Below, piece after piece: positions 43,757-46,253 of a stretch of 64,000 nucleotides of DNA; the first letter of the stretch is position 1, and every line of letters begins with the position of its first letter. Below the pieces are notes generated by a model. It saw only the letters and a program-made list of their open reading frames with translations. It ran no database searches and had not been told where the DNA came from. Source of the stretch: Citrifermentans bemidjiense Bem (GTDB lineage Bacteria > Desulfobacterota > Desulfuromonadia > Geobacterales > Geobacteraceae); contig NC_011146.1 in NCBI RefSeq assembly GCF_000020725.1, positions 3,347,501 to 3,411,500 on the forward strand. Direction: 5' to 3'. The position numbers and the translations under genes were made by a program.

Positions 43757-44311
43757 TTAAAATTTCCTCTCTGTCAACCGATAAACTGCAGCTAATGCAT
43801 GCGTGCTGTAGTAATGACAGATGGGCTCGAATTTGTAAGGAACCAGGAAGCGGTCAAGATCGTCGTGGGTGTAACTGCGGGCTTTGTCGTCACAGCTCAG
43901 GTAATGATGCAAGGGGGATGCGCAACTTATGTCATCTGGCCTGCTGTTGACTTCGATGAGGAAGTATCCCCCCTCACGCAGGTTCGCCACCACGTTCTCA
44001 AGGTATTGCTTACGTTGCGCCCGGGTCTCGATTATGTTGAAGACATAGGTCGAAAGCACCAGATCTACACAGAGATCGCTCTGCGCAAGCTCCGAGACGT
44101 CAAGCAATCGCTCCAGGGCCTTCGCCTTTGGATGAGCCTTCAGGACCTTCACCTGCTCTAGGACGTCGGCAGCATAGACGGTGAATCCCTGTTCTGTCAG
44201 ATAGAGAGCGTTCCTGAGCGACCCGGTGCCGTAGTCGAGCACCCGGTTCGCCCGTATCAGCCGGAAAAATCTGGTATAGCGAATGATGCTGGTCGCAGGC
44301 TTGATGTTCAT
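43757..44311 (-). CDS. Class I SAM-dependent methyltransferase-like protein
   Basis: 184 residues from the ATG at 44311 (GGAGGAGGCGAGGG upstream). SAM motif I VLDYGTGSLRNALYL, acidic end of strand 2 YAADVL, motif IV DLVLSTYVFNII, then LREGGYFLIEVN. The fold is complete but short; the substrate is unknown. Earlier in-frame start codons lack a ribosome site. Single gene. Confidence 0.78.
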   Translation of the reverse strand: MNIKPATSIIRYTRFFRLIRANRVLDYGTGSLRNALYLTEQGFTVYAADVLEQVKVLKAHPKAKALERLLDVSELAQSDLCVDLVLSTYVFNIIETRAQRKQYLENVVANLREGGYFLIEVNSRPDDISCASPLHHYLSCDDKARSYTHDDLDRFLVPYKFEPICHYYSTHALAAVYRLTERKF

Positions 44312-44534
44312 CCCTCGCCTCCTCCGAGGCCTTCCCCGACAGCCACAGGCGTAGGCCTCTTCTGAATCTCGCGGACAATTGTATAGCATCGCCACAAATT
44401 GTTAAGAATATTTAACCATCTTATCCTTGAAGCGATCCTATCTTCCAAGCGAGGGAACAGTCACGGACCCGGCCCAGGTGGTTGAGCCCATTTTGCGCAA
44501 GCCGAAGTTCGTATACTTTTTTTGGAAGAAAGGG

Positions 44535-44563
44535 TTGACATAGCGTCAGACAGTTAATATTAT
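44535..44563 (+). promoter_or_regulatory. Sigma-70 promoter of the riboswitch transcript
   Basis: TTGACA (44535-44540), exactly 17 bases, TATTAT (44558-44563). The start would be near 44570, right at the aptamer 5' end. Confidence 0.82.
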
Positions 44564-44570
44564 GGCCACC

Positions 44571-44682
44571 TGTAAAGGGGAGTAGCTATCGGCCGGAGAA
44601 ATGGCCGACCCCTGGTTCGTCAAGACGGTGGCAACACCCGGACCAGGGGATACGGATTCATCTAACAGCAAGACCTTTACCC
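44571..44682 (+). promoter_or_regulatory. Manganese riboswitch aptamer (yybP-ykoY class)
   Basis: Closing stem GTAAAGG (44572-44578) pairs with CCTTTAC (44674-44680). The conserved GGGGAGTAGC follows the 5' strand, and the 3' side has ACGGATTCAT..CAGCAAGACCTTT, as in characterised yybP-ykoY aptamers that bind Mn2+. An internal arm CGTCAAGACGGTGGCAACACCCGG (written here only for position 44618-44641) matches the conserved second leg. The aptamer overlaps a terminator, so metal binding should turn expression on. Downstream genes are a ribbon-helix-helix protein and a Tim44-like protein, not a known Mn exporter. Confidence 0.9.
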
Positions 44683-44722
44683 AAGCGAAGACATTCGCCG
44701 TGGGTAAAGGTCTTTTTTTTTA
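44670..44722 (+). terminator. Riboswitch-controlled terminator
   Basis: AAGACCTTTACCCA (44670-44683) and TGGGTAAAGGTCTT (44701-44714) are perfect 14-base arms followed by a run of T. The left arm includes the 3' strand of the aptamer closing stem, so the two folds exclude each other: ligand-bound aptamer prevents termination. Confidence 0.92.
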
Positions 44723-44793
44723 CCCCGGCCTTTCCCAAGCGCCTCAACGCGCGCCCCGATGCGGGTATTGCATCCGCTGCAAAAGGAGGAGAA

Positions 44794-45069
44794 ATGCACG
44801 ACGAATCAAGCAAATACGCTGAAACAGCAGAAAGAAAAATGCCTGGCGCCAAAAGAAAATCGCCGCGCAAGAAAGTGAACCAGGTTCTGAAAAACGTGGT
44901 GTCGCTCCGGGTAAGCGACCAGGAGAAAGACCTCTTGGAGCGGCTCACCGAGTCCACCTCGCAGAACGTATCTGACCTGGTGCGGGAGGCTATCGGCTTT
45001 TGGCTCGCCAAGCGCCAGGGACAGCGCGCGGCCAAGACCTTCAGGCACACCCTGCAGACCAATCCCTAA
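44794..45069 (+). CDS. Ribbon-helix-helix DNA-binding protein (CopG-like)
   Basis: 91 residues. A polar, basic N-terminus (about 1-35) precedes a ribbon-helix-helix fold: strand NVVSLRVSDQ, then helices EKDLLERLTESTS and VSDLVREAIGFWLAKR. AAGGAGGAG is just before the ATG at 44794. It is the first gene after the manganese riboswitch and 31 bases before the Tim44-like gene. It may regulate manganese-related genes or bind another operator; no toxin partner is present. Confidence 0.8.
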   Translation: MHDESSKYAETAERKMPGAKRKSPRKKVNQVLKNVVSLRVSDQEKDLLERLTESTSQNVSDLVREAIGFWLAKRQGQRAAKTFRHTLQTNP

Positions 45070-45100
45070 TGCAACTAGACACACAAGGAGACAGAACAAC

Positions 45101-46057
45101 ATGAAACGACATCTAGCAAGAGCATTCACCTTAGCCGCAGCAGTCCTCTTTCTGAGCGTGACCGTGCTGGAGATGGGCGCCGAGGCACGGGTCGGCGGCG
45201 GCCGCTCCATGGGGAGCCGCGGCACGCGCAGCTATTCCGGGCAGGCGGCTCCGTCCTACGCGCAGCCACAGGGGAGCGCCTACCGGCAGCAGGTCCCCCC
45301 GACAGCAGGCCCGATGCAGCAGCAGGGCGGTTCTTTTCTCCGCTCCATGGCCGGCGGTGTCGCCGGCGGCCTTCTGGGCGGCATGCTCTTTCGCGGCATG
45401 GCAGGCGCGGGCGGGGTCGGCGGAGCGGGTGGCGGCATCGGCATCTTCGAGATCCTGCTCCTGGCCGGCATCGGCTACCTCATCTACCGCATGGTGAAAA
45501 AGCGCAGAAGCGAGGCGGCGCTGCAGGGCGCAGGCAGCTACTCCTATGGCGGTTACGAGCAGCAGGGCGCCACCATTTCAGCCCCTTACCGGGTGATTGA
45601 ACCGTCCTACAACGACGTCGCTACCGGCCTTTCGCACTTGCGTCAGATGGACCCCGGCTTCGACGAGGGGCGCTTCAACGACCTGGTCATGGACAACTTC
45701 TTCAAGATCCAGGGCGGATGGATGAACCGCGACCTTGCTGTCCTCGCCCCGTTGGTGACCGAGGAGATGAAGGGGATCTTCCGCGACGACATCGACCGGC
45801 TTTTGCGCGACAGGCAGGTGAACAGGCTGGAGAACATAGCAGTTAGGAACGTGGAGATCACTGAAGTGTGGCAGGAGGCGGGCCAGGATTACGTCACCGC
45901 CCGCATCTACGCCAACCTCCTCGACTACACCACCGATGAAAACGGGCAGGTGATAACCGGAAGCAAGACCGAGCCGGTCAAATTCGAAGAACTTTGGACC
46001 TTCGCAAGGCCGGTAGGGAACAACCCCTGGAGGCTGTCGGGGATAAATCAAGTCTGA
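45101..46057 (+). CDS. Tim44-like domain membrane protein
   Basis: 318 residues. Signal peptide or anchor (about 1-28), a Gly/Ser/Gln-rich low-complexity stretch (about 29-80), glycine-rich hydrophobic segments (about 80-105 and 112-135) ending in a basic stop, then a C-terminal Tim44-like domain (about 165-318; DPGFDEGRFNDLVMDNFFKI, PLVTEEMKGIF, EELWTFARP). AAGGAG precedes the ATG. In mitochondria the Tim44 fold links membrane to import motor; the bacterial role is unclear. Cotranscribed behind the manganese riboswitch. Confidence 0.85.
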   Translation: MKRHLARAFTLAAAVLFLSVTVLEMGAEARVGGGRSMGSRGTRSYSGQAAPSYAQPQGSAYRQQVPPTAGPMQQQGGSFLRSMAGGVAGGLLGGMLFRGMAGAGGVGGAGGGIGIFEILLLAGIGYLIYRMVKKRRSEAALQGAGSYSYGGYEQQGATISAPYRVIEPSYNDVATGLSHLRQMDPGFDEGRFNDLVMDNFFKIQGGWMNRDLAVLAPLVTEEMKGIFRDDIDRLLRDRQVNRLENIAVRNVEITEVWQEAGQDYVTARIYANLLDYTTDENGQVITGSKTEPVKFEELWTFARPVGNNPWRLSGINQV

Positions 46058-46063
46058 AACCCC

Positions 46064-46253
46064 AGATAAAGATAAAGATAAAGATAAAGATAGAGATAAA
46101 GACTAAGATTAAGATTGAGGTTTAGACTTAGAACCGCAAGTTAAGGCTGAATATCGCCAGTGGCAGGAACAGCAAAGGGGACAGGCAACTTTTTGAAATC
46201 AAAAAGTAGCCTGTCCCCCTTTTTTATCTTTATCTCTATCTTTATCTTTATCT
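46064..46253. repeat. Inverted pair of hexanucleotide microsatellites
   Basis: AGATAA units at 46064-46103 and their complement at 46227-46253. A 27-base perfect inverted match (46076-46102 with 46227-46253) includes the same AGATAG interruption, so the arms are true copies, not chance. A second hairpin sits between them. Confidence 0.85.
46174..46226. terminator. GGGGACAGGC hairpin terminator
   Basis: AAAGGGGACAGGC..CTTTTTG pairs across a short AAAT centre with CAAAAAG..GCCTGTCCCC, ending in a T-run. It serves the convergent Tim44-like and hybrid kinase genes and belongs to the same GGGGAC family as the repeats at 29112 and 59912. Confidence 0.82.

Follow-up and report, generated by a model that had tools for sequence, protein, structure and literature searches.

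Manganese riboswitches are usually taken as switches for manganese exporters. Geobacter-type bacteria are reducers of Fe(III) and Mn(IV), and the reduction of Mn(IV) by Geobacter would bring Mn2+ stress. The yybP-ykoY riboswitch class has been described with 232 members, a large share of whose genes seem to be transporters (PMC3766115), and the leaders of Escherichia coli alx and mntP are reported manganese riboswitches (PMC9603457). In the Lactococcus lactis aptamer, A41, which comes next after U39 and C40, is the N7 ligand of the metal; one base atom contacts Mn, and the other five contacts are phosphoryl oxygens (PMC9190785). In Bacillus subtilis, HtpX copurified with MeeF, a TerC protein, whereas the TerC protein under riboswitch control is MeeY (PMC10550928).

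Here, we describe a leader of this kind in Citrifermentans bemidjiense Bem, upstream of a ribbon-helix-helix (RHH) gene and a tim44-like gene. We consider it likely that the leader is a transcriptional ON switch of the yybP-ykoY Mn2+ class and that the RHH and tim44-like genes belong, as one unit, to a Geobacterales regulon for manganese excess. The computations outlined below establish class homology, covariation, an exclusive terminator, recurrence, and operon company.

The leader and its switch helix

Within the window (the whole stretch of DNA that was analyzed, 64,000 nucleotides), the locus comprises the following features.

44535 to 44563, + strand: sigma-70-type promoter, TTGACA-17-TATTAT, 11 of 12 consensus positions
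44569 to 44682, + strand: yybP-ykoY-type aptamer, candidate Mn riboswitch (P1.1, L1, P1, P2, P3 with L3, P3.1, and a variable P4 region), from model R1 (see below), covariation, and homology to the E. coli mntP and alx leaders
44572 to 44578, + strand: 5' strand of switch helix P1.1, GTAAAGG, with its partner at 44674 to 44680; six pairs in the consensus structure
44577 to 44586, + strand: L1 motif GGGGAGTAGC; GGGGAGTAG in 69 of 71 parsed copies
44618 to 44626, + strand: L3 metal-site motif CGTCAAGAC; GTCANNAC in 71 of 71 parsed copies
44666 to 44678, + strand: 3' motif CAGCAAGACCTTT, read in the leader
44674 to 44680, + strand: 3' strand of P1.1, CCTTTAC, common to the terminator
44670 to 44721, + strand: intrinsic terminator, 14-pair outer stem and T tract, exclusive with P1.1
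44782 to 44789, + strand: Shine-Dalgarno-like AAAGGAGG of the RHH gene, read from the sequence
44794 to 45069, + strand: RHH (CopG-type) DNA-binding protein, 91 amino acids (aa), PF01402
45101 to 46057, + strand: Tim44-domain membrane protein, 318 aa, PF04280; it starts 31 bases past the RHH stop codon

The first-pass annotation of this DNA had read here a near-consensus promoter, a yybP-ykoY aptamer with the first two motifs, a mutually exclusive 14-base terminator, and RHH and Tim44-like genes, and all of these were recovered. The promoter and both motifs lie where they had been placed, the 14-pair stem takes up the 3' strand of P1.1, and the genes match RHH_1 (PF01402; E 1.9e-6, 28 bits versus a cut-off of 20.5) and Tim44 (PF04280; E 6.8e-44, 150 bits versus 29.6). 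The order of motifs in the leader, GGGGAGTAGC, CGTCAAGAC, CCCGG, and CAGCAAGACCTTT, is as expected for a yybP-ykoY aptamer, and the minimum free energy of the leader is -70.4 kcal/mol, whereas shuffled sequences average -44.97 (z -6.0; reached in 0 of 200 shuffles).

For comparison across genomes, we used a nonrandom sample of 86 elements, picked for their resemblance to the window element and from model hits. An upstream promoter (at least 9 of 12 positions, within 75 nt before the element) is found in 83 of the 86 loci versus 10% of shuffled upstream sequences, the shuffles being of single bases. Several same-genus RHH-Tim44 loci carry an A/T-rich partial inverted repeat, TTTAC-N8-GTAAA, immediately upstream of the -35 box, and window positions 44480 to 44535 hold a degenerate copy of it; this repeat is a possible UP element or RHH site.

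The terminator in the window consists of the 14-pair stem and an inner 5-pair stem followed by a T run; it is absent from the output of a simple terminator scan, the sole match of which lies elsewhere. In all 78 parseable elements of the 86 (8 rows were unparsed), a hairpin captures the 3' strand of P1.1, with at least four T residues behind all 78 hairpins and five behind 75. The median energies in these 78 elements are -24.6 kcal/mol for the hairpin and -7.3 kcal/mol for the P1.1 duplex. In its anatomy, the switch is of the transcriptional ON type as worked out for L. lactis (PMC11087558), and it presumably functions as an ON switch. In the proposed mechanism, the 3' strand of P1.1 would fold into the terminator when Mn2+ is absent, and transcription would end; when Mn2+ is present, the aptamer with docked L1 and L3 would keep P1.1, and RNA polymerase would continue into the RHH and tim44-like genes.

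Two further observations concern the surroundings of the locus. The divergent neighbor (window 43757 to 44326, - strand) encodes a protein of methyltransferase type with a further match to TehB (PF03848, 44.1 bits), a tellurite-resistance name like TerC. Behind the Tim44 gene, at 46064 to 46253, a near-perfect hairpin lies between an array of AGATAA hexamers and the complement of that array (TTTATC). The roughly 50-bp core of the hairpin (about 46174 to 46223) has 107 matches in the genome, itself and the array included, with palindromic copies often counted on both strands; this core belongs to a dispersed repeat family that may serve as a terminator.

Assignment to the yybP-ykoY class

As a check on the aptamer, the Rfam yybP-ykoY covariance model (RF00080) had been suggested in the first-pass annotation, and this check turned out to be uninformative. 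The window copy is absent from its matches even at an E value of 10, none of the 19 same-genus genomes has a copy above the gathering cut-off of 45 bits, and no match was found in the loci of 16 relatives; two other copies in the same genome score 24.6 and 16.9 bits, and the best score in the genus is 28.1. However, the E. coli controls fare little differently: mntP scores 41.6 bits, below the cut-off, and alx is absent from the matches. Because one of these leaders lies under the cut-off and the other is missed, that cut-off is an unfair test of the class, and the Rfam negative is weak. Given that no copy in 19 same-genus genomes exceeds it and that alx is missed, manganese regulons are probably underannotated.

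In view of these failed controls, we built our own covariance model, R1, from 45 nonredundant Geobacterales copies. R1 scores the window copy, itself one of the 45 build sequences, at 110.6 bits (E 1.5e-27). When two E. coli loci (7 kb together) are searched with filters off, the best match is mntP at 32.1 bits (E 3e-7), followed by alx at 24.7 bits (E 3e-5) and a third match at 7.7 bits; with default filters, alx is found and mntP is missed. As another identity for the leader, SSRC10 (Streptococcus sRNA 10, RF02617) was rejected, its score at window 44573 to 44719 being 16.3 bits, far below the cut-off of 56. SSRC10 also weakly matches the E. coli alx leader (17.6 bits, L123:871-984), and it may be a related leader, itself an unrecognized manganese riboswitch leader.

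In the alignment of the 45 copies, both sides change in 17 of 28 consensus pairs, and 97.5% of cells pair compared with 20 to 52% in slid-pairing controls. None of 500 shuffles reaches four of the five covariation measures and 15 of 500 reach the fifth (further pair types), with the caveat that kinship alone can raise some of these measures. Helices P1.1, P1, P2, P3, and P3.1 are supported by covariation; in the test of a four-way junction of P1 to P4, the alignment gives P4 no resolution. The L1 sequence GGGGAGUAG is kept in 69 of 71 parsed copies and the L3 sequence GUCA in all 71 (72 elements less L114, which is without the 3' motif; one locus is counted twice, as L025 and L095). The A at 44622 is likely the counterpart of L. 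lactis A41.

Is it possible for the leader to be a plain terminator or attenuator with no ligand-binding RNA? The Rfam negative would suit such a leader, but six covarying helices, invariant unpaired motifs, and homology to manganese riboswitches make this barely credible. Instead, the reading of the window leader as a putative yybP-ykoY-class switch is supported by its anatomy, by its covariation, and by the homology that links it to both E. coli manganese riboswitches. The earlier ON-switch reading of this locus thus stands in its class and in its ON anatomy; what changes is its breadth, as the locus would be one unit of a wider Geobacterales regulon.

Recurrence and company of the element

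DNA matches to the element occur in 52 of 58 genomes searched, and model hits occur in 33 of 39 same-family genomes and, under stricter filters, in 28 of 297 genomes of the phylum (own genome included in each count). Because matches recur in 52 of 58 and 33 of 39 genomes, the window element is not a chance occurrence. The first-pass annotation had proposed a survey of the order riboswitch-RHH-Tim44, and the arrangement proved not to be unique: of 19 same-genus genomes (own included), 17 have RHH and Tim44 genes behind the element, directly in 15 and after TerC in 2, the two genomes without this linkage being G004 and G016. The same genome has two further elements, one before HtpX-TerC (C1:2236904) and one before HtpX-Alx (C1:3773291).

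Downstream families were scored for 85 elements, 77 from the order and 8 from outside it (L154 to L158, L160, L162, and L163), over stretches of 0.9 to 7.3 kb; a second hit in L119, which is without a terminator, was dropped here and kept among the 86 of the promoter and terminator tests. Among 20 further stretches, the scripted search found no element motif in L159, L161, L164, L165, L168, and L169. The family hidden Markov models derive from these loci themselves; Pfam was used to check a single representative of each of HtpX, TerC, Alx, UPF0182, and GDT1, as well as the RHH and Tim44-like proteins of the window. The counts are HtpX 46, RHH 34, the Tim44 N-terminal part (Tim44N) 34, TerC 31, Alx 26, the Tim44 domain 26, UPF0182 13, and GDT1 8. 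At least one of TerC, Alx, and GDT1 is found with 51 of the 85 elements, and none of the scored families is found with 4; two of these four, the phylum elements L160 and L162, have genes directly behind them that are P-type cation ATPase-like by sequence. No exporter family was found downstream in the six direct same-genus RHH-Tim44 loci for which 4.4 to 7.3 kb were examined, the remaining loci having been seen only to 1.5 kb or left unscanned.

Does this company help to identify the ligand? A yybP-ykoY-like aptamer with a shifted ligand, such as Fe2+ or divalent metals in general, would suit an anaerobe that reduces Fe and Mn, and both the Fe(III)- and Mn(IV)-reducing habit of the hosts and the weak RF00080 scores of the copies lean this way. 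So does the single base-atom contact to Mn among five phosphoryl oxygens (PMC9190785). However, GUCA is invariant in the 71 parsed copies, the model finds both E. coli manganese riboswitches, and manganese exporter families lie downstream in 51 of 85 elements; we therefore regard a shifted ligand as improbable. Based on homology, covariation, metal-site conservation, and exporter company, Mn2+ is the most likely ligand.

Several side observations were made in these loci. In at least three Nitrospirae contigs (L176:3440-3544, L233, and L251), one of them labeled "Mn-Nitrospirae" (MnB_6), the element stands before HtpX, and in L176 and L233 a P-type ATPase-like gene follows HtpX. One genome with six model hits carries a pair of same-strand elements separated by about 1 kb (G066:C82:24744-25834, - strand). 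In L063, L069, L071, L074, and similar loci, a gene of about 440 aa, CorC/MpfA Mg efflux-like by eye, lies convergently behind HtpX-Alx; this cluster comprises 13 loci, with the gene on the opposite strand in 12. In B. subtilis, loss of a CorC/MpfA-type protein is reported to protect from excess Mn (PMC9334652).

The RHH gene follows the element closely. Among the 30 best RHH loci, 21 have the element inside the fetched stretch and 3 more have it in a wider stretch (L050, L051, and L052); L057 lies in an HtpX-GDT1-Alx-RHH cluster with the element just before HtpX, L047 and L058 are cut by contig ends, and L059, L060, and L061, all among the weakest, are unlinked. The RHH protein could be taken for a type II antitoxin; this was rejected, as the RelB_antitoxin model gives 24 bits versus 50 and the neighbor is Tim44-like. 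No toxin family appears among the Pfam matches of the five window proteins scanned, and a PDB sequence search with the RHH protein returned three weak matches only (E 0.07 to 0.49). We hypothesize that the RHH protein would be a regulator, possibly of the regulon itself.

The Tim44-like protein has a signal-like N terminus, an RSG-rich stretch, one transmembrane helix, and a C-terminal Tim44 domain (signal, transmembrane helix, and topology were assigned by eye). Its N-terminal part is conserved in the alignment (signal-like helix, RSG-rich stretch, and transmembrane helix with a basic end), and from charge the Tim44 domain is expected to be cytoplasmic. In 8 of 34 loci (L027, L082, L090, L091, L095, L109, L110, and L173), the N-terminal part occurs without the Tim44 domain under the same riboswitch, and in the seven of these that were inspected the frame stops at 138 to 168 aa. 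A PDB sequence search with the Tim44-like protein gave no match, and its score is 34.3 against the NCBIfam TimA equivalog cut-off of 200.

Within the same family, 22 of 49 Tim44 genes have a same-strand element no more than 4 kb upstream, and 27, including a second copy in the same genome (C1:1168118), lie away from any element; this tally was made by hand, excludes the two rows that a gene split at the start of a contig gave, and for five unlinked genes rests on the DNA-match search alone. Given these 27 element-free genes, Tim44 does not always accompany manganese control. RHH is bound more tightly to the element system than Tim44 is. In a FastTree tree of Tim44 domains (midpoint rooted, support values not shown, linkage labels assigned manually), which we treat as weak, the same-genus copies whose RHH gene comes immediately after the element form one group, and riboswitch-linked copies also stand in several other places.

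Could the riboswitch, then, be a spare promoter-leader left from a broken HtpX-RHH-TerC-Tim44 operon, with RHH-Tim44 having no manganese function of its own? Larger operons with the same genes exist (L082, L170, and L167), which makes splitting plausible; L082 holds a near-complete set, HtpX-RHH-TerC-Tim44N-UPF0182-GDT1. Unlinked Tim44 paralogs are also common (27 of 49). However, 17 of 19 same-genus genomes keep RHH-Tim44 behind the element, and RHH (17 of 85 loci) and Tim44N (16 of 85) turn up repeatedly alongside exporters or HtpX, in many gene orders. Among the matches listed, Desulfobacula L208 has a divergent Tim44-like gene flanked by Alx on one side and a divergent HtpX on the other. 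A leftover leader is thus distinctly unlikely in our judgment.

A proposed regulon and its relation to known systems

In this proposal, the other units of the regulon would be the HtpX protease, TerC, Alx, GDT1, and UPF0182. HtpX together with TerC under one manganese switch agrees with the B. subtilis work (PMC10550928), and on that ground the regulon would combine manganese export with envelope quality control; as part of a regulon with HtpX, TerC, Alx, GDT1, and UPF0182, RHH-Tim44 would be tied to both. Taken together, this hints that Geobacterales protect the cell envelope under manganese excess. The earlier suggestion of "membrane repair or remetallation" would fit the company of HtpX and exporters as well as the B. 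subtilis MeeF-HtpX association (PMC10550928).

We speculate that the Tim44-like protein would be a membrane-anchored adaptor that acts next to TerC and HtpX, possibly at the Sec translocon, and that this adaptor would keep exported proteins correctly metalated, or see them cleared, as manganese rises. The full form of this model, in which the Tim44-like and RHH proteins would be made only at high Mn2+, the Tim44-like adaptor would work with TerC exporters and HtpX at the Sec translocon, and Mn-reducing Geobacterales would in this way metalate or clear exported proteins, is unlikely but worth stating. If it is true, bacterial Tim44-like proteins would gain a physiological role, and the manganese riboswitch regulon would extend beyond export to the quality control of envelope proteins. 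In one clade, a membrane protease, a DNA-binding protein, and a Tim44-like protein share the switch of the exporters in many gene orders; this offers a testable role for two families without a known bacterial function, Tim44-like and UPF0182, and the TerC-HtpX link seen by copurification in B. subtilis gains support from the genomes of other bacteria.

The riboswitch class is known, and the content of the regulon looks new, with earlier notice possible in the founding papers of the class, Dambach 2015 and Price 2015. In our literature search, which did not take in the gene tables of those two papers, no work on yybP-ykoY with Tim44 was found, TerC with Tim44 gave only unrelated work, Tim44 with TimA and Caulobacter gave nothing, and for yybP-ykoY with htpX only the B. 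subtilis work (PMC10550928) names both.

How, then, does the locus compare with described systems? The window protein shares the C-terminal Tim44 domain with Tim44/TimA-type bacterial proteins (NCBIfam NF033779 and NF033778); unlike those families, it scores 69.2 bits versus a cut-off of 80 and 34.3 versus 200, respectively, and its gene lies under a manganese-type riboswitch. The B. subtilis MeeF/MeeY secretosome set likewise joins TerC with HtpX and has meeY under a manganese riboswitch, but the association there is physical, whereas in Geobacterales it is one of operon and regulon (PMC10550928); in the part of that account available to us, no Tim44-like or RHH protein was found. With the L. 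lactis yoaB yybP-ykoY switch (PDB 4Y1I; PMC11087558, PMC9190785), set beside the window leader by its available description, the locus shares a P1.1 3' strand common to the terminator and the transcriptional ON logic, the target being yoaB there and RHH-Tim44 here. Finally, the window leader has in common with E. coli alx and mntP (the RF00080 class) P1.1/L1 GGGGAGUA, P2, P3 with L3 UCA, and the AGACC 3' strand; its L3 equals that of alx in length (UCAUUAC versus UCAAGAC) and is shorter than that of mntP, and exporters lie downstream in its sister loci. Unlike the E. coli leaders, it has a terminator directly behind the aptamer and RHH and Tim44-like genes downstream.
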